Assembly: GCF_025602895.1 (NCBI RefSeq)
Contig: NW_026516224.1
Span: 1-64,000 of the forward strand
Direction: 5' to 3'
Source of the DNA: Polychytrium aggregatum
Taxonomy: Eukaryota > Chytridiomycota > Chytridiomycetes > Polychytriales
DNA: 64,000 nucleotides
Shown piece after piece: positions 7,923-47,327 of this stretch. The notes beneath the pieces are model-generated. The model was not told where the DNA came from. It ran no database searches and was given only the letters and a program-made list of their open reading frames with translations. Made by a program: the position numbers and the translations under genes. Positions within the stretch are counted from its first letter, which is position 1. Every line of letters starts with the position of its first letter.

Positions 7923-8133
7923 CACAATTGCAACAAATCGCCTTATTTGCTTTGTTTTTATGTAGTTGACTGGATAAGGGTAAGGGTGATGGGAATGCAC
8001 GCACATCCATCATCATCCACCCTACGGAGACAGGGGAGGGGAGTGTGCTCTGGTCTCTGCCACCTGGGGGGTTCTTGGGGAACGCTTGAGCAGCTCCTCG
8101 TCCATCAACAGAGGCTCACGATCCACTGCAGAA
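7923..8133 (+). repeat. 211-bp inverted repeat, left copy (flanks VTC1)
   Basis: This block matches the reverse complement of 10217-10427 at roughly 96-97% by eye, with only a few substitutions and single-base indels. It runs from CACAATTGCAAC to CACTGCAGAA. Sequence outside the two copies diverges abruptly. It contains no recognisable coding sequence. Confidence 0.9.
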
Positions 8134-12176: not shown

Positions 12177-14980
12177 TCAGCGATAGCGACGGCGCCTGTT
12201 CTCCCGCTCCCAACGCGGGCCCCTTCGCTTCCGGCGAAGTTTCAGACGTTTCATCTCTGCTGCGGACGGCTCGACGAGCTGGACCCATTTGTTGTAGTAA
12301 TCGCGCTCGGATTGCTGCTGGGCATTCAGTGGCTGTGGGTTGGTCGACGGCGGTGTGTTGGTGCGGTAGTTGCGCCCGAACTTGGCAAAGCCGATTGAAT
12401 CCGTGGTGCTATTTGCAACCCGAGCGTATCCTTCGGTTTCGGGGTCTGCTGGAATCGCCTTTTTCAGCCATTCAGGGGAGCGAGTCTGCAACAGGCTCTT
12501 TGCCCTTATCCACGACGCAACCAATGAGTCGACCTGGCCGCGCACTCGGCCGAGGTTGGCCTGCACTCGCAAGGGAAGGCCGGGCTTCTTCATTTCATCG
12601 AGGGTCGATATGAGCCGTTCGAGGGCTTCGAATATATGCTCGAGAACGGGCCTCAAAGGCTCGCGAGATATTGGCTCGTGCAGTCGGCAGAAATGGTTGA
12701 TCTTTGAAAACACGATTGTACCCATCTGTGGAAGCCTTGCATGGATTTCGGCTAGAGCCGTGACTGGGTCACCGTAAGCGCACAGAACCTCGACGTATTC
12801 GCAATACACTGGGATACCGAGATACTCGACAAGGTTGGTCGCAGAATCTGTGGCACACGCCGATTCTGAGGCTTGGATCGCGGAGACTGCGAGCCGAAGC
12901 CATCGTCGATCCAGGGGAGAATCAGGCGATGTTTGTTGGGCATGCTTGGCCGCCGATAAGGATATCTTGATGGCGTTTTGGGCCTGATCCCGAGTCGGAA
13001 GCGCTTCGTTGAGCCGAATCGCCCGCTCGAATTCGCGATGCCTCAAGTAGTATGGAATCACAAGATTGACGGCATCGCTGCATATCTGGAGCTGGCGCTG
13101 CTCAAATATCTCAAACCAGACACGACCGAGAGGGCCGCTGATGCAACTGGAGGCAAATCGCAAGAGCGAGAGCATCAATTCAGGCGAGAGCGGTACTTTG
13201 CTTGGGACGGGCTTGATCCAGAGGCTGACCGTTTCTTGGATGGATGCACCTGCCTGGACCTCGGTTGGCAGATCGCAGAATCTGGACAAAAGTGCCAAGG
13301 CTTCTCGGCGGGACTCTTTCTTCATCGTAGCAGCACAGAGGTCGAAGAATGCGGATAAAATGGCCGAGTCCACTTTGAAAGGCTGACCATGAACACCAGA
13401 ATCGGGCCGGGACTGGTACGACGGGTTCGTGGCTATCTTGATGAACTGACTCATGACGGTGGAGCCAACGTCGAAGCCAACAACTTGCGGGCGATAGAGG
13501 GCGCACATTTTGAGAATGATGATGAAAGTATAAGGATCCGGTGGCGGAAAATCAGCCGACTTGCTCTGCGAAGGCTGGATTTTGAGATACATTCCGTCTG
13601 GCCGGACCCAGAACATCATGGACTGGAACAGTTCCAGTCCACGGCTCCATCCGCTTTCATAGACGCAAGAGCGGCAGAGATCGAGAAACAGATTTGCCTG
13701 GACGACGGTTCGCGGGACAAGTCGGTTCCACATAGAGTTGGCCAAGCCGACAAGGTCATTCCGCTCCTTTCCGAAGGTATCGCTTGACTGGCAGTAGAGC
13801 ACAATGGACTCCAAGCCCAACGTGATGAGCTCTGGGGAGGCACGCGACTTGCGTTTGTAATACTGCATGAAGTCGATGGAGGCGATAGACGTCGACGAAA
13901 TAGGAGGAAGGATCCGAGAGAGAATGCGAGCCGAGACAATGTCAGCGCCAGCCAGGACGGGGCCATATCCTCTCGCCCACCGCCGACCATGAACCTGCAT
14001 CCATGAGCCAGACCACTGCCAGCGAGCCCGCATGACCAACAACGTCGAGATCCGTTTGCCTGAGTTGGGGTGTGCAGCGCTGTCGTCGACCGATGCCGAT
14101 CGATGCCGAGACATTCCAATCGATGCCGAGAAATGCCTCACAGCTCACGCCGTTCCCGCCCTGGATCATCATGCTGGATCATCCTCGCTCGACTCTGCCG
14201 CCACACAAGACTCACCAGCTTGAAGGCCTCGATCGCATCTCCGTAGTGGCCGTGGTCCTTGAACGCCTGGATCGCCTCGGCAAACACAACGTCGTTGGTC
14301 GCCCCCGTGTGTCGATCGATCAGGTCCCAGGCTTCGTCGATCTGGCCCGACCGGATCAGTGCCTTCAGCCGGGTACCGAGGTTCTTTGGGTCCGAGTGCC
14401 ACTCGAGTCGCCCTGCTGGCCGGCCGGCCTGATGCGGATCGAGCGGTGTCTGCAACGCTTGCGACGCTTGCACTGATGGTCTCGAGAGAGACGGCGAGAG
14501 GGTCTTTGGCGAGTGCTTCGAGTGTGTCTCGGCTGTTCTTGGCTCCTTGGACCACGGTCGCTGTGTCGAGTGAGTCCCATGGCTCTGTTTGGTGTTCTTT
14601 TCACCAGAGCTGGGTCTGGAGCTGGAGCCGAAGCGGGATGTGGGGCGGGTGCTGGGACCAGATGCCGATGGAGAGCGTGAGGATCGGAAGCTGCGATCGC
14701 GGTCGTTGCTGGGGTGGTCGCTGTTGCGGCGGTCGCTGTTGCGGTCATTGCTTGGACCACGATCGTTGTTGCGGGAGCCTGGTCGGCCAGAGGACATCCA
14801 TCGCCGTGGAATCGCTGGCGGCCACGAGGAGGGAGGCATGAGTGTGTCTGCGGGGTCGGCAGCAACCATGCGAGTGGAGAGCATCTGGGACGCAGGAAGG
14901 GCCCTGAAGATCGTGGGTGCCTGGCGACGGAGGATTGTGGATGGGCGGCCCGCGGCCCGGATCAGACAGGGCGGCAGCAT
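12177..14980 (-). CDS. Mitochondrial-type PPR protein A (816 aa); 5' half inside the left inverted arm
   Basis: Two exons, complement(12177..13862, 14216..14980), joined in phase 0 (255 + 561 aa). The N-terminus is Arg/Ser/Pro-rich and free of acids for the first ~38 residues, a good mitochondrial presequence. A low-complexity Arg/Ser/Asn/Asp stretch follows. Helical repeats begin at GTRLKALIRSGQIDEAWDLIDRHTG, a PPR-like hairpin, and continue across the splice junction (AIEAFKL|YYKRKSR). Exon 2 holds further degenerate helical repeats and ends in a basic tail. PPR proteins bind organellar RNA; which RNA cannot be read here. Exon 1 and most of the intron are identical to PPR protein B (44786-47327), whereas exon 2 is only about 30% similar to B's exon 2. 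Confidence 0.75.
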
Positions 14981-16018
14981 GGTGCTGGTGGATTGTGGTG
15001 GATTGTGATGGGTGTTGGATTGTGGTGGGTGTTGGATTGTGGTGGGTGTTGGATTGTGGTGGGTGTTGGATTGTGGTGGGTGTTGGATTGTGGTGGGTGT
15101 TGGATTGTGGTGGGTGTTGGATTGTGTTGGATTGTGGTGGGTGTTGGATTGTGGTGGGTGTTGGATTGTGGTGGGTGTTGGATTGTGGTGGGTGTTGGAT
15201 TGTGGTGGGTGTTGGATTGTGGTGGGTGTTGGATTGTGGTGGGTGTTGGATTGATGGTGGGTTGGTGTCGATGAGCCCAGACAGGCGCAATGCCAATGCA
15301 GCTCGACTCGGCGGCCAACTGAGGGAATTGAAGACTTGGAGACGAACCGGGCACTCGGAGACTCGCTGGACACTCGGAAACCAACCGGGCCAAGCAGATC
15401 GATCGAGCAGGCAGATCGGTCAAGCAGGCAGATCAATCGAGCAGGCGGATCTGGGACATTGATGGCGATTTGATCTGGCTGGTCCGCTGCCACGCCACGT
15501 GACGGCACAGCCACAGAACAGGATCCAAGGCCATGTCCATGAAGTCGATGGCCATGTCGATGGACGGGGTGGTGTGCAAGGCAGTGCGAAAGGCGGTGGG
15601 CAAGGCGGTGGGCAAGGCAGTGGGCAAGGCGATGGACGGGCGAGTGGGCGATTCCACTGCACAGCACATGAGCCAAATCGCCGTCGCTCGGTCGGTGTGA
15701 TTGGATGGCCATCGACAGCATCCGCATCCACCAGCCTCGTCGACTTCCGCCTCATCGACATTGCCGATCTCACTTGGCCTCTTGCACGCTGTCAGGCCGA
15801 GTTGCCGCATCGTGGCCCATCCACTTGGAACCCACTTGGAACCCACTTGGAACCCACTTGGAACCCACTTGGAACCCACTGGGAGATCTCACCTGGATAT
15901 CCGCGCGTCGCAGCCACCAACCGAGCAGGCCACCAGCACCGGGCCAACAGCCAGCACCACCAACCAGCAAGTATCCCTCAGCATCGCCCACACCAGACAA
16001 GCCAACAACGCGGGAAAT
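14981..16018. promoter_or_regulatory. Shared bidirectional promoter region, PPR protein A / TTLL9-L
   Basis: The two start codons are 1,038 bp apart and point away from each other. The region contains the 17-bp minisatellite, a CACGTG E-box at 15496-15501 within GCCACGTGAC, runs of GGGCAAGGC/GGTG repeats at 15585-15640, and five 11-bp ACTTGGAACCC units at 15823-15877. No further gene is supported inside it. Confidence 0.5.
14998..15257. repeat. 17-bp minisatellite upstream of PPR protein A
   Basis: About fifteen units of TGGGTGTTGGATTGTGG, one of them shortened to 10 bp, begin some 20 bp upstream of the PPR start codon. They must form much of its 5' UTR or core promoter. The same array with the same unit number occurs at about 44508-44768. 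Confidence 0.9.
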
Positions 16019-19000
16019 ATGAGCAACATGAACAACACGAACAACACGAACAATGCAAGCAGCACGAGCAACTCATCCGCCGCCGCGTCGGGCTCGAGCA
16101 AGTGAGCATGAGTGATGGGATGTGGATGATGGGGCAGGACTGGTGGGGTTGGAGTGATGGGACGTGGGCGATACGATGGAGTGATGCGATGTGCACCACG
16201 GAATATGGCTCGCCCTCATGGCTCTCGATGGTCGATGGTCGATGGTCGATGGTCGATGGTCGATGGTCGATGGTCGATGGTCGATGGTCGATGGTCGATG
16301 GTCGATGCTCAATGCTGATCTCTCGGTCCTCGACATTGCTGCCGCGATTCCGATCCATGCCGATTCCCACCAAACGCCATCAGTATCGAGTCTGGATCCA
16401 AGCCCTCTCCGAGACCGTCACAGCCACCACAGCAGCCAGCTCCGTCCATCCCAATGCTTCCGGCTTTCCAGCCACATCCTCCCATCCTCCCATCGCTCTC
16501 CCGTCCACACTCCCGCTCGCTGTCGCAGTCCCGGTCCCTGTCTCGCTCGCACTCCCGCTCCCAGTCGCTGTCTCAGTCGCTGTCCCAGTCGCTGTCTCAG
16601 TCGCCTCCTTCGGCCAGGCCCTTCGGTCGCCCGACCCCGGCCGCCACCATGTCGGCAAAGCCGATTCCGCCTCTGATTCCGTCGTCTGTGGTTGGCATCA
16701 GGACAGCCTCGTCCCCGATCTCGGTGGCTGGATCGCCAGTGAATCCAACGACCATCGAGGATGGAGGCGAGAATGCCACCCAAGGCACCGCAGGAGCAGA
16801 CAGTGCAGGAGCAGACAGTGCAGGAGCAGACAGTGCAGGAGCAGACAGTGCAGGAGCAGACAGCGCAATCTCCACCAGGATCACTCCCAACACCAACACC
16901 AACACCAACACCAACACCAACACCAACACCAACACCAACACCAACACCAACACCAACACCAACACCAACACCAACACCAACACCAACACCAACACCAACA
17001 CCAACACCAACACCAACTCATCGGTGTCACTTCCCACGGCATCCACCTTCGCCGAAGCAGCAGCCTCCATTTCCTCTCCAGCTGTGGTTGCTTCCCTCAT
17101 CACAACTCTCCCCATCACAACTCTCCCCATCACAACTCTCCCCATCACAACTCTCCCCATCACAACTCCCCCCATCACAACTCCCCTCACCACAACTCCC
17201 CTCGCCGCTGCCAGTGACCCGCACCAGCCCAACCTCATGTCGCTCTCGAGTCTCAGTCTCGGCTCGCCATCGTCGTCGCTGTTGCTGGAGGGTCCGTCGA
17301 CACTCTTGTCGTCATCGCTGATCTCGTCGTCGCTGCTGCCGCTGTCGCTGCTTCCGTCATCGCTGTCATCGCTGTCATCGTTGTCGTCAAGCACTGGGTC
17401 GCCTTCGTCCATGGCCGGATCGCCTCGACCAGTCACTCGCTCCGGACCAGTCCCTCCCACCTCGTCGTCTGTGGCCGGGACGACAATGCGGACATCACTC
17501 TCTGTCGCCGACCCGCCGTCTGTTGCAGGCGAGGCATCCACCAACGGGACACCATCGCCCAACGGCCAGGCATCGATCACCGGCTCGACATTGGCAACGA
17601 CATTAGCAACGACGGCGACAGCGACAATGGGTGCTGCATCCACCAACGGTGTGCCGACCACAGGCGGCCCTGCAGCGACACCGGTGCCTCCCCCCACGGC
17701 CACGGGGACGGCCCCGGCCTCGGCCACACCAGCGGCAGCCATCCAGATCAAGTTCCGGACGTCGCTCCGCAACACAGTGTACGATGTGATGCGGGATCGG
17801 TCGTGGCGCGAAGGCGACTCTGAGATGGACTGGGACTTTTTCTGGGCAGATGTGCACTGGGTACACGAGACCTTTGACCATGTGTATCTGCAAGAGCACC
17901 AGAAGATCAACCACTACCGCAACCACTACGAGGTGAGTGAGTGTGAGTGTGAGTGTGAGTGTGAGCGGAGGTGAGTGTGGGAGTGTCTGAGTGAGTGATC
18001 AGTTGTGGGAGCCATGATCCAATCCATCCAGTCTCACCACTCTGGCAAGCCGTCGACAACCACCACATGTTGGTCCACACTGGCCGCCCACAGTCGACTG
18101 TGTCTCCATCGTCCACTGACCACCCGCCTCGCTGACTACCCGCCTCGCTGACCACCTCGCCTCAGCTCACCCGGAAGGACCTCCTGGTCAAAAACGTCAA
18201 GCGGATGATCAAGACCATGGAGAAAGAGTACGGAAAGACCGAGGCTGCAAAGTTCGAGTTCATCACCACGTCCTATGTGCTTCCCCAGGAGCACGCCCTG
18301 TTCCAGGAAGAGTTCAAGCGCAACCCCGGATCGGTGTGGATCATGAAACCCGTCGGCAAGGCACAGGGCAAGGGAATCTTCCTCATCAACAAGATGTCGC
18401 AGATCAGCCAGTGGCGCAAGGACCCGAGGGTGCGGGGTGGATCGGACGGCGATGCACCCGAGGCTTACATTGTGCAGAAGTACATTGAGAACCCGTATCT
18501 GATCGGAGGTGAGGCCGAGGGGTGGTGCTGGTGCTGGTGGTGCTGGTGCTGGTGGTGCTGGTGCTGATGTTGTGGGGTATTGTGGTGTTGATGTGGTGTT
18601 GATACTCCTGCTGCTGCTACTCATTTGTCGTCGGATGGCCCGGTCCATCCGAATCGACCACTGCACGGCGGTCGTGCTCGACTGACTGAGGCGTCGCTGT
18701 CCACAGGGAAAAAGTTTGACATCCGAGTGTATGTGCTGGTGACATCGTACTATCCCTTGGTGGTGTACATCCACCGCAACGGCTTTTGTCGCTTCTCCAA
18801 CTACCAGTTCTCGATGAACTCAAAGGACATTTCGAACCTCTGTGAGTGGCGCTGTGGCTCTGACTCTGGGCTGCTCGGCTGCCCGGCTGTGACCTGATGC
18901 ATGGCGTGTGTTGATGTGTGCTGTATATCTCGATGTGTGTCGTCCGTCTCGATCTGTTTCATGGCTTTTGTGTGCAACAGCTTGCACAATGTCGCCCACG

Positions 19001-20878
19001 ATTGACTCGCCTCCATCACTCCACTCTCACACTCTCACACTCTCACACTCTCACACTCTCACACTCTCACACTCTCACACTCTCACACTCTCACACTCTC
19101 ACACTCTCACACTCTCACACTCTCACACTCTCACACTCCCACACTCTCACACTCTCACCCCAGACATCCACGCCACAAACGTCGCCATCCAAAAGACCTC
19201 GCCGCACTACGATGGCGACAAGGGTTGCAAGTGGCTCCTGCGCAACCTCAAGACCTATCTCACCAGCAAGCACGGCACCGCCGCCATCAACGAGCTCTTC
19301 ACCGAGATGGAGGCGCTGATTGTGCGCAGTCTGATGAGTGTCCAGAAGGTCATGATCAACGACAAGCACTGCTTTGAGCTGTGAGTAGCGGCCGGCGGTG
19401 CTGGTGCTGGTGGTTGTGGTGGTTGTGGTGGTGCTGGTGGCTGTGGTGGTGGTGGTGGTGCGGGCATGAGGACTGACTGGGCTGCTTGAAGATCGTCTGG
19501 AAATTGGCGCAGATGTGGATGTCGGTGTGATGATCACCACCAACTGCAACCTGCACCATTCCATCACCACCTGCACCACCACCTGCACCACCACCTGCAC
19601 CACCACCTGCACCACCACCTGCACCACCACCTGCACCACCACCTGCACCATCCCATCACCACGCGCAACACCACCCCATCTGTCTCCAACCCAACATCCG
19701 CTCACCGCTCACCACGCATCACCCACCGCATCCACAGATACGGATATGACATCCTCATCGACGACGCCCTCAGACCGTATGTGTTGGGCCTGATCCTGGG
19801 TCGACTTTGACTGCACGCACGGACCCGCCACTCGCCGACCACCTGCTGACCATCATCCATCACCGACACGATCACTAACATACCGACACCATCACTAACA
19901 TACCGACATCACCGACACTATCACTAACATCACCAACGCCATCGACACCATCCGCCGATACCATGTCCGCCTCAACCCACTCGCCTGTGCAACGCACATC
20001 CTCCCACCCTCTGCAGATGGCTGCTCGAGGTGAATGCGTCGCCGTCGCTCACGGCCGAGACCCAGTTCGACTACGACCTCAAGTATGCAATGCTCAACGA
20101 CGCCTTTGATGTCATTGACTTTGAGAAAAGGTCAGCGACGACAGGCGGCACATGGCGCCTGTGCCGGAGGTGTCTGTTGACCCAGCCGCCAATGTCGAGC
20201 AGCGGTGGCGGCTGGGCCAGGCAGAGGCATGATGAGCTGGGGCCGAGTGCGGTTCCCACCGCCACCACCACCACGGCTGATCATCCCGCACCACCACGAC
20301 TGATCATCCCGCACCATCCGCACCATCCGCACCATCCGCACCATCCGCACCATCCGCACCACAGATACACCAATGACAAGAAGCTCAGGACCCGTGTTGG
20401 CGGCTTTGATCTGGTTTACAACGACGGACCTGTCAAGCACGAGCGCACCAGCAGCTATGCCTCCTATCTCGGTGCGTGCGTGTGGTGGTTGTGGTGGTTG
20501 TGGTGGTTGTGGTGGTTGTGGTGGTTGTGGTGGTTGTGGTGTTGCAGAGCGAGCTGCGATGGCAGCGGCCATGACGAGGCAGACCGATCCAGTGACGGAC
20601 GGTCGATGATGTGACATGCATCCGCGACGGGCCCCATGGGTATCCATGAACACATCCACATTCATGGTCACGACTCTCTCCACGGAATCGCTCTCCCACT
20701 CCCACTCTCACATCCACTCCCACTCTCACTCCCACTCCCACTCCCACTCCTACTCCCACTCCCACTCTCTCACCGGCTTGCTCTCGCTCCAGGATGCTAT
20801 CACCCAATCAAGCGTGCTCCGCGCATCAAGAAGCGGCTCGGTGGTGGGGCGGGATCGGGTCCCACCGTCCCGAATTGA
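16019..20878 (+). CDS. TTLL9: TTLL9-type tubulin polyglutamylase, copy L (890 aa)
   Basis: Nine exons: join(16019..16101, 16384..17932, 18166..18508, 18707..18841, 19164..19380, 19738..19776, 20017..20130, 20365..20471, 20793..20878), all phases agree. The TTL core starts about residue 483 ([52 protein letters not shown]). ATP-grasp elements follow: [62 protein letters not shown] and [13 protein letters not shown]. The tail [14 protein letters not shown] then [10 protein letters not shown] matches animal TTLL9. TTLL9 glutamylates axonemal tubulin. The first ~480 residues are low complexity (Asn-rich start, Ser/Arg repeats, five AGADS, (NT)21, five TLPIT) and unlike animal TTLL9. An alternative start at 16649 has a strong GCCGCCACC context. 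Introns carry minisatellites. Confidence 0.9.
16226..16302. repeat. 7-bp tandem repeat in TTLL9-L intron 1 (11 units)
   Basis: Eleven CGATGGT units. The right arm has twelve (43457-43540). Because the repeat is intronic in the chosen model, the one-unit change does not alter the protein. Confidence 0.9.
16790..17160 (+). repeat. Coding minisatellites in TTLL9-L exon 2
   Basis: Three in-frame arrays: five 15-bp units encoding AGADS (about 16790-16864), twenty-one 6-bp CAACAC units encoding Asn-Thr (16888-17013), and five 15-bp units encoding TLPIT (about 17104-17178). Unit numbers are the same in the right arm, in contrast to the intronic arrays. Confidence 0.85.
19025..19136. repeat. 8-bp tandem repeat in TTLL9-L intron (14 units)
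   Basis: Fourteen TCTCACAC units end 27 bp before the acceptor of the exon starting at 19164. The right arm has twenty-two units (40559-40734). Confidence 0.9.
19560..19660. repeat. 12-bp tandem repeat in TTLL9-L intron
   Basis: About seven CACCACCACCTG-type units lie in intron 19381-19737. The counterpart at about 40040-40140 looks the same. Confidence 0.8.
20311..20535. repeat. Two 9-bp tandem repeats around TTLL9-L penultimate exon
   Basis: Five GCACCATCC units (20311-20355) end at the acceptor of exon 20365-20471, and six GTGGTGGTT units (20482-20535) follow its donor. The right arm has only two of each. Confidence 0.85.
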
Positions 20879-21198
20879 GTCACATCGATCTATGAGTCTT
20901 CAGCCACCTCACCACCGAGTCATCCATTCGTTGCATGTACATCTGACAGCCCCAGGGATCTCTGTCAATAACCTAGAGTACAGACATCAAAACTAACTTG
21001 CCCTTCGGGCACTTCTATTCAATCAAACAATCCAGGCAGCTTTCACATAGAGTCATTGACCGAGATTATGGCGGAGTTGGCTGGGTTCCAGTTTTTATAA
21101 AACCATAGAGGATACTCTTCAATATAGATTCCTTTCACTAGCGATATAATGTTCGTTGCGGTAAGTTTGCGCTTCTGAGCTTGTCTGGATGCTCATTC
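20879..21198. other. Convergent intergenic region, TTLL9-L to GH16
   Basis: The first base still belongs to the left arm; the rest is single-copy, AT-richer sequence containing the 3' regions of both genes. No gene seen. Confidence 0.5.
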
Positions 21199-22692
21199 CT
21201 AAATGAAGACCATGGCCAGTGCACCCAAGAGTGTACCCAGCCCAAGGGTGGCACTCGTCACGCTGGTCCTCAGGGCTCCCGAGGAAGACTTCTTTGTCGG
21301 GACGGCCGTGGGAGCTGAAAGGGGACTGGCCGAAGCAGCCAAGACGCCGGGCGGGCAGGTGATCGAAGAGTTTGTGAACGGATCGGCGGGGGCTGGGTTC
21401 AGGAAAGGGCTGAGTCAGACGATGCACTTGGTTCTGGACCATGAAGTGTCCACCCGAAAGTCCATAGACACTGCTTCCTTCCCTCTCCCTCGCTCTCGTC
21501 ATATCTTGTATTGGATGATTGTGAGTCGCTGTCTCCGGCCACTCTACTTACCATTGTTCTTGTATTCCTTGATGGAATGAATGGCCCAGTAGGCATCGTT
21601 AAAACCCCCTGGCGTGGAGAGGACATACTGCTCACAGGTCAAGTCGGAAGGGCATCCTGAGTCGCCCCAGTTGCTGATGGGCCACTTGCCACAGAGCGCG
21701 GTGTTGATGATCAGGCGCAGGTCTTGGAAGTGGTTCGAGGGACAGCAGCCAAAGTCAAAGCGCATCAGGGGAAGGCCCCAGGTATCGGGGTTGGGGTTCT
21801 CGGACAGAATGTCAGCGGGAATGTTGGGGCGGCTGAAGAAGTGGATGGCAAAGCCGTTGGTGTCCCAGTTGATGGTGTAGGCGCCGCCGCCGACGGCGTT
21901 GAACTGAGGACCAAAGGTCGAGGAATCGTTCACTTTGGTTGCACAGCCGTTGGAGAGCGCGGGGCTGGGAACGGGCGGGTCGTTGATGCCACAGGTCTGA
22001 GAGAGCGCCTGGCCGAGCTGGCTCGATCTGTCGGGCTCTCCGTAGCATCCTTGGGTGGTGGTATGGGGAGGCGAGTGACATGATGTGTTGATAATGTGAG
22101 CGTTATGTGGATGGGTGAGTGAAATAGCACCGTCTGGGTTGGATGGACCCACCCCGGCTGCCTATCGGACCCACGCCGGACTGTGCTTCTCCGTGCAAGT
22201 CAGCAACCTACCCGAGGAGGTGTGGATGACCATGTTGTTGTAGCTCATGGTGTTGACGCCTTCCATAAAGTCCAGCTCGCCCTGGTTGAGACCCTTGAAC
22301 CACATGGCGGGCCAGGTTCCGCAGCCCGTCGGGGCGTGGCCAATGTCGGCGACGAGCAAGGTTCCAGAGTTGTAAACTTTGTTGGACTGAATGCGAACCG
22401 AGCTGCGCTTGCCGCCGCTGGGGACGACGGTGGAAGAGTCGACGGCCATGAAGGCACTGCCAGCGCCCTGGTTGAAGTAGATCAAGTTCGCCTTGGTAGC
22501 GTTGGCGCGCGAGATATACTGGTTGGTGGTGTTTGGGGTTGGATCCTTGGCGGTCATGAAGCTGAAGTTGTCGAAGAAGGTGAGGCCGGAGAACTCGGCG
22601 ACCTTGGTGAAGCTGGCGGCGGCGACGAGCGAGGCAGCATGGGCATCGAGCAGCATCACGAGTGCAACGGCGAGGGCAGTCTTGGGCGCCAT
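21199..22692 (-). CDS. GH16-family beta-glucanase-like enzyme, secreted, GPI-anchored (390 aa)
   Basis: Three exons, complement(21199..21392, 21552..22049, 22212..22692). The start gives a signal peptide (ALAVALVMLLDAHAASLVAAA). About residue 137-146 lies NQGELDFMEGVN, matching the GH16 active-site pattern ExDxxE with its two catalytic Glu. The context is right: GTWPAMWF before it and NNMVIHTSSGCYG after it. The second exon holds further GH16 strands (INWDTNGFAIHFF, CGKWPISNWG, TCEQYV). In the chosen last exon the protein ends in a Ser/Thr/Pro-rich linker and a hydrophobic tail (LGLGTLLGALAMVFI), typical of GPI attachment. An alternative acceptor (exon from 21433) would end in a short soluble tail. 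The family cleaves or remodels wall beta-1,3(4)-glucans; exact substrate unknown. Confidence 0.82.
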
Positions 22693-36150: not shown

Positions 36151-36694
36151 GTACCTCGTTCCCGTGGCAAGGCCGGCGTGGGGCTGTGTTTACCCATCCA
36201 GCCGAACAGACAGGGCCGCCGTTGTCTCCACTCGGTGGCGGGCCCTTTGTCGAATGACTGAGGATGTGCAGCGGACAAGCGGACACAAACCTTGCCGCGA
36301 CTGGGCTCCAAACGGAGGCCGGCGGATGATGGCGCCTTGTGCGGCGATGGCCATCTTAAGGGTGTCCGCGGGACGCAAACTCGACGCCGCCACTGTCCCA
36401 GGCGCGTTGCGGGCTTCGGGGGGCTGTGTCGTTGTCTCTTTGTGCTCCTGCCATCCAATAAAACCCTCTGGGCATCAACAAACAGCAAATCGCCGTCCAC
36501 GGCCGCGGACAGGCGCAGACAACGGTCATACGCGCCTCCACCACGTATAAAGCCGACGGCTTTGGCGCAGGTCCTTTCCCACCATCGCTCGCTCGTTCGT
36601 TCGCTCCATCGTCCTTTGGGCCCCAAGTCGCCTCATCCGTTGTTTCCCAAGCCCCGTCTTTAGCTGCTCCCCGTTCACAGGTTCATCAACAAAA
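36151..36694. promoter_or_regulatory. CDA1-CDA2 intergenic region with TATA box
   Basis: TATAAA at 36546-36551 (context CACGTATAAAG) lies about 145 bp upstream of the CDA2 ATG, followed by a CT-rich segment. No gene in between. Confidence 0.5.
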
Positions 36695-38284
36695 ATGCGT
36701 TCCCTCACCATCCTCTGCCTCCTCGGCGCCACCCAGACTGCCTACGGCATCGGTATCGATCTCAGCCAGATCTACAAGAACGGCTTCAGGGTGTTTGCTG
36801 CCGATGCCAACCCCACAAGCAGCGCCGTGTCCCCTGTTACCACCTCGGCTGCCCCCGCTCCTGCGTCCACTGGCCGCCCTGCTCTGCAGCTCCCTCCCCC
36901 GATGCCCAAGAGTAAGCCAGCACCCGCTGTCCTGCTCTGCTGCCCATCCTGTAGTTGTGGGCCTGGTGTGGCATCTGTTTGGCCTGCTGACTCGAGCTGA
37001 CCCTCGTTTGTTACTGCAGAGTGGCCCTCGGTTGACCAGACCAACTTCATCACCGGTGATCTCCTCAAGGATCCCCTCGTGCAAGAGTGAGTCACTCGCT
37101 TGTCGCGTTTACACACGTCTACTAGTCCACGTTGCCAATCGAGATGGTCACAATCAGATTTCTAACCCCTGTGCTGTGATCTACCAGTGCCCTCGCCTAT
37201 GTCCAATCTGTCGTTCCCGCCTCGCTGTTGAGCATTGCACCTTCGACCTACGTCAGTGGATCGACTGTCAAGTACACTGCTGATGGTAAGCAGGGCCACT
37301 GTCCACTGAATCGGCCTTGGCTGCTAAGAATCGGCATCCCGAACTAACTTGCTCGTCCTTCTGCTCACAGCCAACGCCAATTGCTACTGGCCCAGCAACC
37401 TCTGCGTTCGCGCTGCCGCTGGAAACGGCTATCAGGCCGATGTCTACACCTGCCCTCAGCCCGGCACCTGGGGAATCTCCTTTGACGACGGACCCACTGT
37501 CGATCCCGTCACCCACGACGACTCGGCCGCCATCCGTGCCCAGCTCGACAAGATGAACATCAAGGGAACCTTCTTTGTGGTTGGATCGAACGTCATCCAG
37601 AACCCCCAGATTGTCCTGGACGAGTACAACGACGGCCACCAGATCGGCGTCCACACCTGGACACACCATCCCCTTACCTCGTGCACCAACGAGCAGATCG
37701 TCGCCGAGCTCAAGTATGCCGAGGCCATCGTCTACAACGCCACCGGACAGATCCCTTACTTCTTCCGTCCTCCCTATGGCGACATTGACGACCGAGTGCG
37801 TGCCATTGCAAACGCTCTTGGCTACAGCGTCACCATCTGGGACAAGGATGATCTTGCCGCCGATCAAACCACTACCTCTGTCTCCGTCGCCAACAAGCTC
37901 ATCAACACTGCCACCTCGACCTGGTTCACCAACTACACGGCCGGTTTCATTTCCCTCAGCCACGACATCGACCCCTTCACCAGCGGCGTCATCCTCAGTA
38001 TTCTCCAGTATGTCGACGCCAACCGTGCCACCATCAAGCTGAACATTGAACCCGTTGGCACCTGCGTGAACAAGCCTTGGTTCCGCCCTCTCAAGAACGC
38101 TACCGCGACTACGACTACCTCTGCTTCGGCTTCGTCGACCGCCGCTGCCTCCGCTTCTTCCTCTCCCTCTCCCACTAATGGCTCCAACCTTGTCTCTGGC
38201 TCCGCCTCGACCTTCAAGGGTCTTGGTCTCCAGCTCGTCTCGGCTGCCGCTGCTCTGGCTTTTGGTGTCGCTATGAACTTCTAG
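36695..38284 (+). CDS. Chitin/polysaccharide deacetylase CDA2 (CE4), GPI-anchored (431 aa)
   Basis: Four exons, join(36695..36911, 37020..37086, 37188..37285, 37371..38284), the same architecture and phases as CDA1. The signal peptide is RSLTILCLLGATQTAYG. The N-terminal spacer is longer and Ser/Thr/Ala/Pro-rich. CE4 motifs are present: FDDGPT, HTWTHH, RPPYGDIDDRVR, TIWDKDDLAAD, SLSHDI. The C-terminus has a Thr/Ser/Ala-rich linker and hydrophobic tail (LVSAAAALAFGVAMNF). A 253-bp block (37413-37665) is identical to CDA1 35207-35459 except for one silent change, far closer than the flanking exon sequence. This suggests gene conversion between the two. Predicted role: chitin to chitosan conversion at the cell wall. 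Confidence 0.93.
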
Positions 38285-38873
38285 ACTCATTACCCCGACA
38301 AATCCCCCCTACCTTCTAATGTGCACTCATCGTTCATCCATCGTATTTATTCCTACCCAGCTATAAAACAAGTTGTGGTACTCCGCTTTTTATTTTTCTC
38401 GTCCCCTCACCCCAATTTTCTTCACACCGACCTAACTTGATTTGTGCATGACAAATAAGACTCTATTCTGGACAATGAATAAACGCAGCTTTGACTGCAG
38501 CAATGCTTCACGACACTTGATTGCGCACGGATGTTATCGACCTCGGTGATGGGTGCTGGCCCAGAAACCTGACGGGGGGCGGCGGCGCTTGGTGGGTGGG
38601 CGAGAGTGGGGAGATGAGCAATTTTTTGGAGCGAAGAGGCAAGGCGTTTGTGCGATCCCGATGGCGTTTCAAGAACCCCCACCCCAACGCCCCTCTCGCC
38701 TCCATGCGAGGGATACTTGGCCAACGCCGAGCTCAGGCCAGCGGATCGTCCTCCCACAACGAGTCTCAAGGAAGCCAGCGGCGCGGTTGAAACAATTGAA
38801 AATTGGTGTCGAGACGGATCACACCATCGTGCCCAACGATCCACCACCACCAGGATGGCGACGACGGGTGGGG
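38285..38873. other. Intergenic, CDA2 to right arm
   Basis: AT-rich 3' region with AATAAA near 38478; no gene supported. The right arm starts at 38874. Confidence 0.5.
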
Positions 38874-38874
38874 C

Positions 38875-41800
38875 TCAATTCGGGACGGTGGGACCCGATC
38901 CCGCCCCACCACCGAGCCGCTTCTTGATGCGCGGAGCACGCTTGATTGGGTGATAGCATCCTGGAGCGAGAGCAAGCCGGTGAGAGAGTGGGAGTGAGAG
39001 TGGGAGTGAGAGTGGGAGTGGATGTGAGAGTGGGAGTGGGAGAGCGATTCCGTGGAGAGAGTCGTGGCCATGAATGTGGATGTGTTCATGGATACCCATG
39101 GGGCCCGTCGCGGATGCATGTCACATCATCGACCGTCCGTCACTGGATCGGTCTGCCTCGTCATGGCCGCTGCCATCGCAGCTCGCTCTGCAACACCACA
39201 ACCACCACAACCACCACACGCACGCACCGAGATAGGAGGCATAGCTGCTGGTGCGCTCGTGCTTGACAGGTCCGTCGTTGTAAACCAGATCAAAGCCGCC
39301 AACACGGGTCCTGAGCTTCTTGTCATTGGTGTATCTGTGGTGCGGATGGTGCGGATGGTGCGGGATGATCAGTCGTGGTGGTGCGGGATGATCAGCCGTG
39401 GTGGTGCGGGATGATCAGCCGTGGTGGTGGTGGCGGTGGGAACCGCACTCGGCCCCAGCTCATCATGCCTCTGCCTGGCCCAGCCGCCACCGCTGCTCGA
39501 CATTGGCGGCTGGGTCAACAGACACCTCCGGCACAGGCGCCATGTGCCGCCTGTCGTCGCTGACCTTTTCTCAAAGTCAATGACATCAAAGGCGTCGTTG
39601 AGCATTGCATACTTGAGGTCGTAGTCGAACTGGGTCTCGGCCGTGAGCGACGGCGACGCATTCACCTCGAGCAGCCATCTGCAGAGGGTGGGAGGATGTG
39701 CGTTGCACAGGCGAGTGGGTTGAGGCGGACATGGTATCGGCGGATGGTGTCGATGGTGTTGGTGATGTTAGTGATAGTGTCGGTGGTGTCGGTATGTTAG
39801 TGATGGTGTCGGTATGTTAGTGATCGTGTCGGTGATGGATGATGGTCAGCAGGTGGTCGGCGAGTGGCGGGTCCGTGCGTGCAGTCAAAGTCGACCCAGG
39901 ATCAGGCCCAACACATACGGTCTGAGGGCGTCGTCGATGAGGATGTCATATCCGTATCTGTGGATGCGGTGGGTGATGCGTGGTGAGCGGTGAGCGGATG
40001 TTGGGTTGGAGACAGATGGGGTGGTGTTGCGCGTGGTGATGGGATGGTGCAGGTGGTGGTGCAGGTGGTGGTGCAGGTGGTGGTGCAGGTGGTGGTGCAG
40101 GTGGTGGTGCAGGTGGTGGTGCAGGTGGTGATGGAATGGTGCAGGTTGCAGTTGGTGGTGATCATCACACCGACATGCACATCTGCGCCAATTTCCAGAC
40201 GATCTTCAAGCAGCCCAGTCAGTCCTCATGCCCGCACCACCACCACCACCACAGCCACCAGCACCACCACAACCACCACAACCACCAGCACCAGCACCGC
40301 CGGCCGCTACTCACAGCTCAAAGCAGTGCTTGTCGTTGATCATGACCTTCTGGACACTCATCAGACTGCGCACAATCAGCGCCTCCATCTCGGTGAAGAG
40401 CTCGTTGATGGCGGCGGTGCCGTGCTTGCTGGTGAGATAGGTCTTGAGGTTGCGCAGGAGCCACTTGCAACCCTTGTCGCCATCGTAGTGCGGCGAGGTC
40501 TTTTGGATGGCGACGTTTGTGGCGTGGATGTCTGGGGTGAGAGTGTGAGAGTGTGGGAGTGTGAGAGTGTGAGAGTGTGAGAGTGTGAGAGTGTGAGAGT
40601 GTGAGAGTGTGAGAGTGTGAGAGTGTGAGAGTGTGAGAGTGTGAGAGTGTGAGAGTGTGAGAGTGTGAGAGTGTGAGAGTGTGAGAGTGTGAGAGTGTGA
40701 GAGTGTGAGAGTGTGAGAGTGTGAGAGTGTGAGAGTGGAGTGATGGAGGCGAGTCAATCGTGGGCGACATTGTGCAAGCTGTTGCACACAAAAGCCATGA
40801 AACAGATCGAGACGGACGACACACATCGAGATATACAGCACACATCAACACACGCCATGCATCAGGTCACAGCCGGGCAGCCGAGCAGCCCAGAGTCAGA
40901 GCCACAGCGCCACTCACAGAGGTTCGAAATGTCCTTTGAGTTCATCGAGAACTGGTAGTTGGAGAAGCGACAAAAGCCGTTGCGGTGGATGTACACCACC
41001 AAGGGATAGTACGATGTCACCAGCACATACACTCGGATGTCAAACTTTTTCCCTGTGGACAGCGACGCCTCAGTCAGTCGAGCACGACCGCCGTGCAGTG
41101 GTCGATTCGGATGGACCGGGCCATCCGACGACAAATGAGTAGCAGCAGCAGGAGTATCAACACCACATCAACACCACAATACCCCACAACATCAGCACCA
41201 GCACCACCAGCACCAGCACCACCAGCACCAGCACCACCCCTCGGCCTCACCTCCGATCAGATACGGGTTCTCAATGTACTTCTGCACAATGTAAGCCTCG
41301 GGTGCATCGCCGTCCGATCCACCCCGCACCCTCGGGTCCTTGCGCCACTGGCTGATCTGCGACATCTTGTTGATGAGGAAGATTCCCTTGCCCTGTGCCT
41401 TGCCGACGGGTTTCATGATCCACACCGATCCGGGGTTGCGCTTGAACTCTTCCTGGAACAGGGCGTGCTCCTGGGGAAGCACATAGGACGTGGTGATGAA
41501 CTCGAACTTTGCAGCCTCGGTCTTTCCGTACTCTTTCTCCATGGTCTTGATCATCCGCTTGACGTTTTTGACCAGGAGGTCCTTCCGGGTGAGCTGAGGC
41601 GAGGTGGTCAGCGAGGCGGGTAGTCAGCGAGGCGGGTGGTCAGTGGACGATGGAGACACAGTCGACTGTGGGCGGCCAGTGTGGACCAACATGTGGTGGT
41701 TGTCGACGGCTTGCCAGAGTGGTGAGACTGGATGGATTGGATCATGGCTCCCACAACTGATCACTCACTCAGACACTCCCACACTCACCTCCGCTCACAC

Positions 41801-43747
41801 TCACACTCACACTCACACTCACTCACCTCGTAGTGGTTGCGGTAGTGGTTGATCTTCTGGTGCTCTTGCAGATACACATGGTCAAAGGTCTCGTGTACCC
41901 AGTGCACATCTGCCCAGAAAAAGTCCCAGTCCATCTCAGAGTCGCCTTCGCGCCACGACCGATCCCGCATCACATCGTACACTGTGTTGCGGAGCGACGT
42001 CCGGAACTTGATCTGGATGGCTGCCGCTGGTGTGGCCGAGGCCGGGGCCGTCCCCGTGGCCGTGGGGGGAGGCACCGGTGTCGCTGCAGGGCCGCCTGTG
42101 GTCGGCACACCGTTGGTGGATGCAGCACCCATTGTCGCTGTCGCCGTCGTTGCTAATGTCGTTGCCAATGTCGAGCCGGTGATCGATGCCTGGCCGTTGG
42201 GCGATGGTGTCCCGTTGGTGGATGCCTCGCCTGCAACAGACGGCGGGTCGGCGACAGAGAGTGATGTCCGCATTGTCGTCCCGGCCACAGACGACGAGGT
42301 GGGAGGGACTGGTCCGGAGCGAGTGACTGGTCGAGGCGATCCGGCCATGGACGAAGGCGACCCAGTGCTTGACGACAACGATGACAGCGATGACAGCGAT
42401 GACGGAAGCAGCGACAGCGGCAGCAGCGACGACGAGATCAGCGATGACGACAAGAGTGTCGACGGACCCTCCAGCAACAGCGACGACGATGGCGAGCCGA
42501 GACTGAGACTCGAGAGCGACATGAGGTTGGGCTGGTGCGGGTCACTGGCAGCGGCGAGGGGAGTTGTGGTGAGGGGAGTTGTGATGGGGGGAGTTGTGAT
42601 GGGGAGAGTTGTGATGGGGAGAGTTGTGATGGGGAGAGTTGTGATGGGGAGAGTTGTGATGAGGGAAGCAACCACAGCTGGAGAGGAAATGGAGGCTGCT
42701 GCTTCGGCGAAGGTGGATGCCGTGGGAAGTGACACCGATGAGTTGGTGTTGGTGTTGGTGTTGGTGTTGGTGTTGGTGTTGGTGTTGGTGTTGGTGTTGG
42801 TGTTGGTGTTGGTGTTGGTGTTGGTGTTGGTGTTGGTGTTGGTGTTGGTGTTGGTGTTGGTGTTGGTGTTGGGAGTGATCCTGGTGGAGATTGCGCTGTC
42901 TGCTCCTGCACTGTCTGCTCCTGCACTGTCTGCTCCTGCACTGTCTGCTCCTGCACTGTCTGCTCCTGCGGTGCCTTGGGTGGCATTCTCGCCTCCATCC
43001 TCGATGGTCGTTGGATTCACTGGCGATCCAGCCACCGAGATCGGGGACGAGGCTGTCCTGATGCCAACCACAGACGACGGAATCAGAGGCGGAATCGGCT
43101 TTGCCGACATGGTGGCGGCCGGGGTCGGGCGACCGAAGGGCCTGGCCGAAGGAGGCGACTGAGACAGCGACTGGGACAGCGACTGAGACAGCGACTGGGA
43201 GCGGGAGTGCGAGCGAGACAGGGACCGGGACTGCGACAGCGAGCGGGAGTGTGGACGGGAGAGCGATGGGAGGATGGGAGGATGTGGCTGGAAAGCCGGA
43301 AGCATTGGGATGGACGGAGCTGGCTGCTGTGGTGGCTGTGACGGTCTCGGAGAGGGCTTGGATCCAGACTCGATACTGATGGCGTTTGGTGGGAATCGGC
43401 ATGGATCGGAATCGCGGCAGCAATGTCGAGGACCGAGAGATCAGCATTGAGCATCGACCATCGACCATCGACCATCGACCATCGACCATCGACCATCGAC
43501 CATCGACCATCGACCATCGACCATCGACCATCGACCATCGAGAGCCATGAGGGCGAGCCATATTCCGTGGTGCACATCGCATCACTCCATCGTATCGCCC
43601 ACGTCCCATCACTCCAACCCCACCAGTCCTGCCCCATCATCCACATCCCATCACTCATGCTCACTTGCTCGAGCCCGACGCGGCGGCGGATGAGTTGCTC
43701 GTGCTGCTTGCATTGTTCGTGTTGTTCGTGTTGTTCATGTTGCTCAT
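38875..43747 (-). CDS. TTLL9: TTLL9-type tubulin polyglutamylase, copy R (890 aa)
   Basis: Nine exons, complement(38875..38960, 39228..39334, 39565..39678, 39919..39957, 40315..40531, 40918..41052, 41251..41593, 41827..43375, 43665..43747), each the same length as in copy L. All splice sites and catalytic elements ([35 protein letters not shown]) are intact, so both copies should encode the same 890-aa enzyme. The two genes differ only in intronic repeat number. Its 3' flank beyond the stop is unrelated to that of copy L, so the two transcripts should have different 3' UTRs. See copy L for domain positions and expected role in axonemal tubulin glutamylation. Confidence 0.9.
40559..40734. repeat. 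8-bp tandem repeat in TTLL9-R intron (22 units)
   Basis: Twenty-two GTGTGAGA units, against fourteen in the left arm. Confidence 0.9.
43457..43540. repeat. 7-bp tandem repeat in TTLL9-R intron 1 (12 units)
   Basis: Twelve ACCATCG units, against eleven in the left arm. Confidence 0.9.
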
Positions 43748-44785
43748 ATTTCCCGCGTTGTTGGCTTGTCTGGTGTGGGCGATGCTGAGGGATACTTGCT
43801 GGTTGGTGGTGCTGGCTGTTGGCCCGGTGCTGGTGGCCTGCTCGGTTGGTGGCTGCGACGCGCGGATATCCAGGTGAGATCTCCCAGTGGGTTCCAAGTG
43901 GGTTCCAAGTGGGTTCCAAGTGGGTTCCAAGTGGGTTCCAAGTGGATGGGCCACGATGCGGCAACTCGGCCTGACAGCGTGCAAGAGGCCAAGTGAGATC
44001 GGCAATGTCGATGAGGCGGAAGTCGACGAGGCTGGTGGATGCGGATGCTGTCGATGGCCATCCAATCACACCGACCGAGCGACGGCGATTTGGCTCATGT
44101 GCTGTGCAGTGGAATCGCCCACTCGCCCGTCCATCGCCTTGCCCACTGCCTTGCCCACCGCCTTGCCCACCGCCTTTCGCACTGCCTTGCACACCACCCC
44201 GTCCATCGACATGGCCATCGACTTCATGGACATGGCCTTGGATCCTGTTCTGTGGCTGTGCCGTCACGTGGCGTGGCAGCGGACCAGCCAGATCAAATCG
44301 CCATCAATGTCCCAGATCCGCCTGCTCGATTGATCTGCCTGCTTGACCGATCTGCCTGCTCGATCGATCTGCTTGGCCCGGTTGGTTTCCGAGTGTCCAG
44401 CGAGTCTCCGAGTGCCCGGTTCGTCTCCAAGTCTTCAATTCCCTCAGTTGGCCGCCGAGTCGAGCTGCATTGGCATTGCGCCTGTCTGGGCTCATCGACA
44501 CCAACCCACCATCAATCCAACACCCACCACAATCCAACACCCACCACAATCCAACACCCACCACAATCCAACACCCACCACAATCCAACACCCACCACAA
44601 TCCAACACCCACCACAATCCAACACCCACCACAATCCAACACAATCCAACACCCACCACAATCCAACACCCACCACAATCCAACACCCACCACAATCCAA
44701 CACCCACCACAATCCAACACCCACCACAATCCAACACCCACCACAATCCAACACCCATCACAATCCACCACAATCCACCAGCACC
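43748..44785. promoter_or_regulatory. Shared bidirectional promoter region, TTLL9-R / PPR protein B
   Basis: Same length (1,038 bp) and content as 14981-16018, inverted. The E-box CACGTG is at 44265-44270, and the 17-bp minisatellite (about 44508-44768) lies just before the PPR start codon. Confidence 0.5.
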
Positions 44786-47327
44786 ATGCTGCCGCCCTGT
44801 CTGATCCGGGCCGCGGGCCGCCCATCCACAATCCTCCGTCGCCAGGCACCCACGATCTTCAGGGCCCTTCCTGCGTCCCAGATGCTCTCCACTCGCATGG
44901 TTGCTGCCGACCCCGCAGACACACTCATGCCTCCCTCCTCGTGGCCGCCAGCGATTCCACGGCGATGGATGTCCTCTGGCCGACCAGGCTCCCGCAACAA
45001 CGATCGTGGTCCAAGCAATGACCGCAACAGCGACCGCCGCAACAGCGACCACCCCAGCAACGACCGCGATCGCAGCTTCCGATCCTCACGCTCTCCATCG
45101 GCATCTGGTCCCAGCACCCGCCCCACATCCCGCTTCGGCTCCAGCTCCAGACCCAGCTCTGGTGAAAAGAACACCAAACAGAGCCATGGGACTCACTCGA
45201 CACAGCGACCGTGGTCCAAGGAGCCAAGAACAGCCGAGACACACTCGAAGCACTCGCCAAAGACCCTCTCGCCGTCTCTCTCGAGACCATCAGTGCAAGC
45301 GTCGCAAGCGTTGCAGACACCGCTCGATCCGCATCAGGCCGGCCGGCCAGCAGGGCGACTCGAGTGGCACTCGGACCCAAAGAACCTCGGTACCCGGCTG
45401 AAGGCACTGATCCGGTCGGGCCAGATCGACGAAGCCTGGGACCTGATCGATCGACACACGGGGGCGACCAACGACGTTGTGTTTGCCGAGGCGATCCAGG
45501 CGTTCAAGGACCACGGCCACTACGGAGATGCGATCGAGGCCTTCAAGCTGGTGAGTCTTGTGTGGCGGCAGAGTCGAGCGAGGATGATCCAGCATGATGA
45601 TCCAGGGCGGGAACGGCGTGAGCTGTGAGGCATTTCTCGGCATCGATTGGAATGTCTCGGCATCGATCGGCATCGGTCGACGACAGCGCTGCACACCCCA
45701 ACTCAGGCAAACGGATCTCGACGTTGTTGGTCATGCGGGCTCGCTGGCAGTGGTCTGGCTCATGGATGCAGGTTCATGGTCGGCGGTGGGCGAGAGGATA
45801 TGGCCCCGTCCTGGCTGGCGCTGACATTGTCTCGGCTCGCATTCTCTCTCGGATCCTTCCTCCTATTTCGTCGACTCCACTTTGGTGCACTTTCAGATGA
45901 AACGCCGCAAGATCGTCCCCACGCCCAGTGCATACACTGGCTTGATCAACGGAGCATTCAAAGCGGTCACCCGTCCCGATGTGCTCCCAAGTGATCGCAG
46001 CCGCATTTTGCAGCAAATCAACGCCGTCTGGGAGGACCTGCCCAATCCCTCGACTATCCATGCCAACGCAATGCTCAAGCTCTGCGTCCCCTGTGCTTAC
46101 GAGGGTGGCTGGAAAGTCGCCATCGACATCTTTGACGGCATGATGCTCTGGACTCGCGATGAGCTTCAAGACATTGACTCAGGTGCCTACAACAGCCAAG
46201 AGCCCACGTTCTCCTACCCTCCTCCCGACTCCATCTCGTTCTCGACTATGCTGCAACTGTGTGGTGCGTTCTTTCCCTCGTCAAAAGGGTACTCCATGGG
46301 ACTCCGCATCATGAACGACCTTGAAAACATCCTCGACGAGCCACCGCAAGGCATTCGCAAGCTCGAGATCACAAATATCTACCACGGCATCCAAATGGAC
46401 TCCCACATCGCGGCTTCCTTTCTGCTCCTCTGTGCCAAGTCCGGACATCCCGAAGCATATCGCAATGCGCAAGTCGTGATCCAAAAGTACCTCGATCTTC
46501 CCTCGCAACTCGACCCCGACGCGGCGAACAAGACGATCCTGGACGAATGGAGTGAGCCTCATCGCGAAAAGCTCCTGCTCACTCCAACTCTGATGTTTGC
46601 CCTCCTTCGTTTGGCCTCGGCGACGGGGAATGGGTGCCTCGGGCTCGTCTGGTTCGATATCTTCCAGCGACGCAAGCTCGAGTGCGATGACGGTATCCTG
46701 AACCTCGCGATCATGCTCTGTGCTGAGCAAGGACGCTTCGATCGAGCGGCCGAGCTCAATCAACATACGCAGTCCAGGAGCCACGCCCAAAACTCCATCC
46801 GAATTGCGTCCCTGGCTGTGGCCCTCGCCAAACAGGAAACGCCGACCGCACCGCTGAGCCGCAAGTGGCTGCAGTCAGCCAGCGACGCAGTTAAGAGCGC
46901 ACAGAAAACCGAGGACAAGTCGGGCAGCACCCGAGCTGTTCCCTATCTCACCACAGCGGTGTTTCGTCAGTACATCGAGCTGCTGATGGCTTACAACGAA
47001 CGTGCGGCCGCAGCCGCAGTCGTTGAGCGGTACGGACAGCACATTCTGATGATCTCACGACGCAGCCTGGACAACTACAAGGCCGAGCCAGGCCGAGCGC
47101 AGAGGATGGCGATGCAAAGCGGTCTCGAGCAGACCATGGAATGCCTCCAATTGTGCAAAGTGGTGCTTCAAGGATGTCTTGCGGACGCCGATGTGCGCCC
47201 TGACCGGCGGCAGGAAGCCGAGGCCATGATCGACAACATCAACAGCGTCCTCCTTGGCTGGAAGAGCTGCATGCATGCCGAGAACTCCCGTCGAGCAGCG
47301 CAGACAAATACACATCGCCCGGAGTGA
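44786..47327 (+). CDS. Mitochondrial-type PPR protein B (731 aa); 5' half inside the right inverted arm
   Basis: Two exons, join(44786..45550, 45897..47327), phase 0, 255 + 476 aa. Exon 1 is the same as in PPR protein A: a mitochondrial presequence, low-complexity Arg/Ser/Asn region and first PPR hairpins. Exon 2 completes a textbook PPR repeat across the junction (AIEAFKL|MKRRKIVPTPSAYTGLINGAF) and continues with degenerate helical repeats. It aligns colinearly with exon 2 of protein A (for example LGLVWFDIFQRRKLE with LGRVWFEIFEQRQLQ, and SHAQNSIRIASLAVA with DQAQNAIKISLSAAK) but at only about 30% identity, and it lacks A's basic C-terminal tail. Probably binds a different mitochondrial RNA from protein A; the target is unknown. 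Confidence 0.8.

Follow-up and report, generated by a model that had tools for sequence, protein, structure and literature searches.

The described system closest to the locus analysed here is the flip/flop (FF) region of Saccharomyces chromosome XIV, where 24 kb lie between 4.2-kb inverted repeats and occur in two orientations (Salzberg et al. 2022; PMC9731477). Each FF repeat carries two genes and is homogenised within species and, to a lesser degree, within strains. The authors attribute this to gene conversion, do not identify the source of the homogenising pressure, and used independent assemblies to check for an assembly artefact (PMC9731477). In the chytrid Polychytrium aggregatum, a comparable element lies in the window studied here, the initial 64,000 bases of contig NW_026516224.1 (C135), which is 698,648 bases long and belongs to an assembly of 64.7 Mb and 418 contigs (GCF_025602895.1). 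It consists of a pair of near-identical 7-kb arms, A and B, in inverted orientation around an 18-kb gene-bearing centre. We favour, at a probability of about 0.8, an old inverted duplication that has been homogenised by gene conversion from arm to arm on at least one occasion after the two haplotypes of this assembly separated, and probably repeatedly. Homogenised inverted repeats are well described from mammalian sex chromosomes and from one Saccharomyces locus, to which this locus would add a further case with two haplotypes that can be compared.

Like the FF region as that report describes it, the P. aggregatum locus combines inverted repeats of a few kilobases, two protein-coding genes and intergenic DNA in each arm, a gene-bearing centre and constant boundaries (PMC9731477). 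It differs in that its arms measure 7 kb rather than 4.2 kb, are rich in tandem repeats, and hold a TTLL-like (tubulin-tyrosine-ligase-like) gene and, of a PPR-like gene, no more than exon 1, the rest of that gene having diverged; a second orientation was not found among the two haplotypes. The arm genes of the FF region (YNL018C/YNL034W and YNL019C/YNL033W) and those seen here, which look TTLL-like and PPR-like, are set beside each other by label only. The near-identity of inverted arms is also shared with human Y palindromes such as P6, in which it is attributed to gene conversion (PMC3723533), although here the repeat stands in both haplotypes of a diploid assembly and a link to a sex chromosome is not known. 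For old inverted gene pairs in C. elegans, the identity of the inverted repeats is reported to be better conserved than the sequences themselves, for which the authors suggest gene conversion; nematodes also have a direct-repeat copy pair that is alike solely at its start, and the spacer of the F44E5.4 locus measures 126 bp, against 18 kb here (PMC1803023). Homogenised inverted repeats on the mammalian X chromosome flank a recurrently inverted segment (Caceres et al., cited in PMC9731477), and the arms described here likewise flank a segment able to invert, although inversion was not seen and the genes are unrelated. Among human inversions between inverted repeats, 11 of the 16 that could be analysed bear signs of recurrence (PMC3961182). 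Among the papers listed in searches of the fungal literature, judged by title and opening lines of the abstract, there was no other gene-bearing flip/flop repeat of this kind. The arms of the present locus are shorter than those of human Y palindromes, and the genes of the X-linked case are reportedly FLNA and EMD.

The two arms are reverse complements of each other, and self-BLAST and global alignment both reproduce the exact coordinates proposed in a first-pass annotation of the window (Table 1). Its estimate of about two substitutions outside repeats is also borne out, as arms A and B of C135 (A1 and B1) differ at two of 4,950 aligned columns, at 19518 and 20668. All length differences fall at tandem-repeat loci, as had been proposed, but global alignment resolves five such loci instead of six: +7 bases at 16225, +64 at 19022, a net −4 at 20266-20361, −36 at 20481 and −18 at 20734, which sum to the net +13 that separates 7,002 from 6,989 bp. 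From 13891 to 19021 the sole difference is one 7-base repeat unit, and the outer 5,275 columns (13891-19158 versus 45875-40601) align by self-BLAST with one mismatch and one 7-base gap. The differences cluster in the inner 1.9 kb or so of the arms, and 11 of the 17 substitutions in the raw arm alignment lie in a rearranged 23-mer/9-mer array at 20317-20335. Because the differences between A1 and B1 are concentrated towards the centre, recent transfer apparently extended over the outer part of the arms. Past both arm ends, identity in the global alignment drops off abruptly. The length of the match excludes a chance origin; the next longest inverted match outside the arms, among the 80 self-BLAST matches listed, spans 212 columns.

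The outer boundary of each arm runs through a PPR-like gene, with exon 1 inside the arm, exon 2 outside it and the arm end within the predicted intron 1. In both haplotypes, exon 1 of the left (L) gene and exon 1 of the right (R) gene translate identically (all 255 aa in haplotype 1 and all 275 aa in haplotype 2), whereas exon 2 of the two genes shares 31% amino acid identity over 381 positions (BLASTP, E 8e-63, in an alignment that begins a few codons inside the intron) or 29% when the exons alone are aligned. At the nucleotide level, the exons 2 are 46% identical globally and 58% over their best 236 columns. The AG acceptors that follow the arm ends, at 28 nt on the left and 21 nt on the right, are in the same phase. 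A recent duplication that had ended by chance would hardly meet a distant paralogous exon, in phase and in the same orientation, 21-28 nt further on, and the PPR-like pair thus predates the present identity of the arms. The roughly 30% amino acid identity of the exons 2 just outside the arms is what a duplication older than the arm identity suggests would leave. Searched against the genome at E <= 0.001, the exons 2 match nothing but each other and the haplotype copies. We use the name PPR-like tentatively: PPR_2 matches one of the genes at 17.9 bits, below the cut-off of 30, while the other has no Pfam family and neither has an NCBIfam match. Splicing of exon 1 to exon 2 is predicted from the gene models. 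Near the 3′ end of gene L, at window position 12302, two other contigs of the assembly (C194 and C343, introduced below) lack two bases, a loss that shifts the frame of about the last 40 codons and could be allelic or an assembly error.

The inner boundary coincides with the end of the TTLL-like gene. The stop codon of copy A occupies 20876-20878 and arm A ends 1 nt later, at 20879; past the stop codon there is no clear similarity between the two sides, which would fit an exchange reaching as far as the copies were still alike. In haplotype 1, the two copies have identical translations of 774 codons plus stop, and in haplotype 2 the frames are intact at 755 and 786 codons including the stop. 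An open reading frame (ORF) of this gene at 19928-20614 matches the Pfam family TTL (E 3.4e-5), and exon 2 has a weak match to the tubulin polyglutamylase TTLL6 (E 0.00097).

The assembly offers a second copy of the whole locus. Contig C194 (34,736 bases) begins at the first base of C135 and spans the left flank, arm A and part of the centre, and C373 (294,483 bases) begins within arm A and spans the centre, arm B and the right flank. The arms of these contigs, A2 (C194:13897-20856) and B2 (C373:27708-34872), have the same boundaries as A1 and B1, and the centre, which is longer on C373 (C373:3074-27707), has the same orientation. Relative to C135, the left flank carries 11 substitutions over 13.9 kb and the right flank 21 over 25.1 kb, or about 0.08%. 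Left-flank alleles are common to C194 and C343 against C135, and seven centre substitutions are common to C194 and C373 against C135. The truncated arm with which C373 begins carries substitutions at 18100 and 18513 that otherwise occur only in the arm of C194. The simplest reading is one diploid locus in which C135 is haplotype 1 and C194, C373 and C343 are redundant pieces of haplotype 2. Among other TTLL relatives in the genome, two are present as contig pairs and one as a single copy, as might be expected of an assembly that holds most of two haplotypes. Matches of fewer than 300 columns were dropped from the haplotype comparison, and the partial, noisy arm A3 (C373:1-3073) was excluded from all counts. 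C343, which breaks off 341 bp inside the arm, was considered as a third or arm-less haplotype and rejected, as it carries haplotype-2 alleles together with 35 substitution columns and 91 gap columns private to it; we treat it as a noisy haplotype-2 duplicate. C135 and C194 share their first base at position 1 though they seemingly belong to different haplotypes. As regards a telomere, four exact tandem TTAGGG units are absent from the genome, and on visual inspection the initial 600 bases appear free of repeats.

Without exchange between the arms, arm A of one haplotype is expected to resemble arm A of the other, so that a four-way comparison of A1, B1, A2 and B2 tests for exchange. In the four-way alignment, 13 events group A1 with B1 against A2 with B2, one groups A1 with A2 against B1 with B2, and one is crossed; several of these events are pieces of one repeat locus, and the remaining events concern single arms. 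We compared repeat lengths between flanking anchors at 24 tandem-repeat loci, 14 of which vary and 10 of which do not. At the variable loci, lengths are equal between A1 and B1 at 9, between A2 and B2 at 8, between A1 and A2 at 3, between B1 and B2 at 1, between B1 and A2 at 3 and between A1 and B2 at none, which amounts to 17/28 equalities within haplotypes, 4/28 between alleles and 3/28 for crossed pairs. Shuffling the labels within loci yields a mean of 8 within-haplotype matches against the 17 observed (frequency 0.00016, with loci treated as independent), a frequency that overstates the support because one long tract could carry many loci. One of these arrays, a 15-mer repeat, lies in PPR-like exon 1, and its haplotype-2 length adds 20 aa to both paralogues (255 aa twice versus 275 aa twice). 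Outside the repeats, over the same 4,950 columns, the haplotype 1 arms (2 substitutions) are closer to each other than the allelic pairs A1-A2 (9) and B1-B2 (5) are; A2-B2 differ at 6 columns, A1-B2 at 3 and B1-A2 at 9. These substitutions give weaker support for exchange than the repeat lengths, clear for haplotype 1 and not for haplotype 2. At least one transfer from arm to arm since the haplotypes separated is well supported.

Several observations weigh against homogenisation of an old duplication or restrict what it can claim. Outside the repeats, the arms of haplotype 2 differ from each other more than B1 differs from B2 or A1 from B2, grouping of the arms by haplotype is limited to three substitutions (17628, 18048 and 19165), and the substitution at 19518 is crossed. 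A 6-base event at 20746, near the inner arm end, groups A1 with A2 against B1 with B2. C194 sides with C135 and not with C373 at six centre substitutions (31.4-34.4 kb), so that phase may be mixed towards its end. Noise affects the haplotype-2 contigs (C343, the beginning of C373, and C194 near 28.5-29.3 kb), and consensus mixing could be the source of some of the arm identity. A single whole-arm transfer after the haplotypes separated would suffice to explain the data, which come from only two haplotypes of one individual.

The most economical mechanism is non-allelic gene conversion between the inverted arms. An old inverted duplication would have carried a divergent pair of genes, PPR-like and TTLL-like, and conversion between the arms of one chromosome would homogenise most of it: a tract that starts in intron 1 of the PPR-like gene, takes in exon 1 of that gene, the promoter region common to both genes and all of the TTLL-like gene, and stops at the TTLL stop codon. 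The arm boundaries would then be set where the copies are too diverged, in PPR-like exon 2, or unrelated, after the TTLL stop codon, and each PPR-like gene would be a mosaic of a copied exon 1 and its own old, diverged exon 2. Resolution as a crossover would occasionally flip the centre. The arms, their boundaries, the open gene models, the low identity of the exons 2 and the repeat lengths shared between arms are observed directly; we infer that the transfer was gene conversion, that it recurred, that the repeat-rich arms initiate it and that a crossover would at times flip the centre. The first-pass annotation had argued that recombination between the arms would flip the centre without breaking any gene, which the anatomy shows to be correct; its further suggestion that the population may hold both orientations finds no support here, as the centre is oriented alike in both haplotypes, though two chromosomes are too few to exclude a second form.

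The identity of the arms had been put down to either recent duplication or continuing conversion. Repeat lengths shared within haplotypes and the contrast between exon 1 and exon 2 favour conversion of an old duplication and count against a recent one, while continuing conversion is not proven. A single recent event would have copied a 7-kb segment in inverted orientation onto a distant, pre-existing PPR paralogue, for example by break-induced replication, thereby making the second TTLL copy with no later exchange. Near-identical introns and intergenic DNA, an outer edge that sits in an intron of a pre-existing paralogue, and a distance between A2 and B2 similar in size to the allelic distances would all fit such an event. 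However, arms with the same boundaries are present in both haplotypes and yet their repeat lengths group mostly by haplotype, which requires exchange after the haplotypes separated, and an inner edge at the TTLL stop codon is expected if a TTLL copy was already present. A single event would, moreover, still be non-allelic copying, and we regard it as unlikely.

More improbable again is an assembly artefact in which one arm was used twice or polishing mixed the reads of both arms, even though the haplotype-2 contigs are noisy and redundant and the phase of C194 is possibly mixed. The left outer junction is present in three contigs (C135, C194 and C343) and the right outer junction in two (C135 and C373), and the inner junctions in three (C135, C194 and C373) and two (C135 and C373). 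Because haplotype 2, on the separate contigs C194 and C373, has both arms with the same boundaries and orientation, a one-off artefact is unlikely. A1 and B1 also retain differences in their inner 1.9 kb, and it is not obvious how mixing could make alleles group by haplotype over separate contigs. The centromeres of Candida tropicalis are associated with homogenised inverted repeats (PMC7292649, PMC4741521), which is what would commend a centromere of that type here. With an 18-kb centre that bears at least three domain-containing ORFs and has an ordinary G+C content of 58.1%, between arms that bear genes as well, this identity has almost no likelihood. To our knowledge, the cores of C. tropicalis-type centromeres are gene-free, whereas the core of this repeat is gene-bearing. 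The conversion of an old inverted duplication stands as our preferred account of the locus, whose features are collected in Table 1.

Table 1 Features of the inverted repeat locus (positions in the 64,000-base window, haplotype 1)
Feature	Coordinates	Strand	Remarks
Arm A of inverted repeat	13891..20879	+	6,989 bp; self-BLAST and global alignment
Arm B of inverted repeat	38874..45875	-	7,002 bp; self-BLAST and global alignment
Unique centre	20880..38873	.	17,994 bp; oriented alike in both haplotypes
PPR-like gene L, exon 1	14216..14980	-	255 aa, inside arm A; donor GT
PPR-like gene L, intron 1	13863..14215	-	Predicted, GT-AG, phase 0; contains the arm end, 28 nt from exon 2
PPR-like gene L, exon 2	12177..13862	-	561 aa, outside arm A
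PPR-like gene R, exon 1	44786..45550	+	Inside arm B; coordinates mirrored from arm A
PPR-like gene R, intron 1	45551..45896	+	Predicted; contains the arm end, 21 nt from exon 2
PPR-like gene R, exon 2	45897..47327	+	476 aa, outside arm B
TTLL-like gene, copy A	16649..20878	+	Hand model, 8 exons, 7 GT-AG introns; putative start codon
TTLL-like gene, copy B	38875..43110	-	Translation same as copy A
15-mer repeat in PPR-like exon 1	14699..14744	-	46 bp in both haplotype-1 arms, 106 bp in both haplotype-2 arms
17-mer minisatellite	14995..15262, mirror 44504-44771	.	Directly upstream of PPR-like exon 1 start codon
8-mer minisatellite in TTLL-like intron	19022..19158, mirror 40537-40737	.	Largest A-B length difference, 64 bp
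Polysaccharide (chitin) deacetylase-domain ORF, copy 1	35080..36150	+	Centre; Pfam, stop-to-stop ORF
Polysaccharide (chitin) deacetylase-domain ORF, copy 2	37328..38284	+	Centre, adjoins arm B; Pfam, stop-to-stop ORF

The tandem-repeat content of the two arms is 28.6% and 27.6%, compared with 4.4% for the left flank, 3.4% for the centre and 2.0% for the right flank, the last taken over 45876-84000 of C135. These repeats may provoke the breaks from which exchange begins, or may themselves have arisen through repair. A 3-kb stretch of central arm A, used as a query, gave 67 matches among the best candidates scored, 62 of them short and five long. The long matches lie solely at this locus (two in C135, one in C194 and two in C373, one of these cut by the contig start), and no dispersed full copies were found with this query. 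A transposon with long terminal inverted repeats was considered and is unsupported, as the matches of this query away from the locus are all short; no transposase was found in the 15 ORFs scanned with Pfam, of 90 listed. Tandem-repeat-rich parts of the arms at 16225-16307 and 16887-17017, together with their mirrors in arm B, have short matches elsewhere, for example in C101, C190 and C62, and some of these arrays may therefore belong to dispersed repeat families. In the left flank, a small inverted repeat (7923-8133 and 10217-10427; 212 aligned columns, 97% identity, about 2.1 kb apart) is present also in C194 and C343.

The centre had been annotated with a GH16 gene, a cyclin, an FHA gene and two deacetylases. 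Pfam searches of single ORFs recover both deacetylase domains as well as a cyclin domain, the latter at 22.8 bits against a cut-off of 21, whereas GH16 and FHA were not recovered by this approach and are neither confirmed nor refuted. The two deacetylase-type ORFs are related and arranged as a direct repeat. The combination of a TTLL gene, chitin deacetylase and introns is suggestive of a zoosporic fungus. Copy number differs between the haplotypes, with two deacetylase-type copies in haplotype 1 (window 34227-38284) and four in haplotype 2 (C373:16421-27118), where the region includes a 1.6-kb segment repeated at 99%. A further deacetylase-type gene, with 57% amino acid identity, lies in the right flank at 49116-49850, across arm B from the centre pair, a position that would at least fit the present orientation of the centre being the older one.

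The gene that crosses the arm edge provides an unusually clear internal marker of age, identical inside the arm and about 30% identical just outside it, which helps to tell conversion from recent duplication even without a related species. The dense tandem repeats of the arms (about 28%, against 2-4% in the surrounding DNA) would serve as fast markers for conversion in culture. We also put forward, tentatively and as a doubtful possibility, that the inverted repeat acts as an exon- and promoter-sharing device for two ancient, functionally diverged PPR-like proteins, in which recurrent copying between the arms holds the N-terminal region and regulatory DNA alike while the centre may flip. If so, any newly arisen variant of the N-terminal region, for example the 20 aa by which the haplotypes differ, would enter both PPR-like proteins of a chromosome together.

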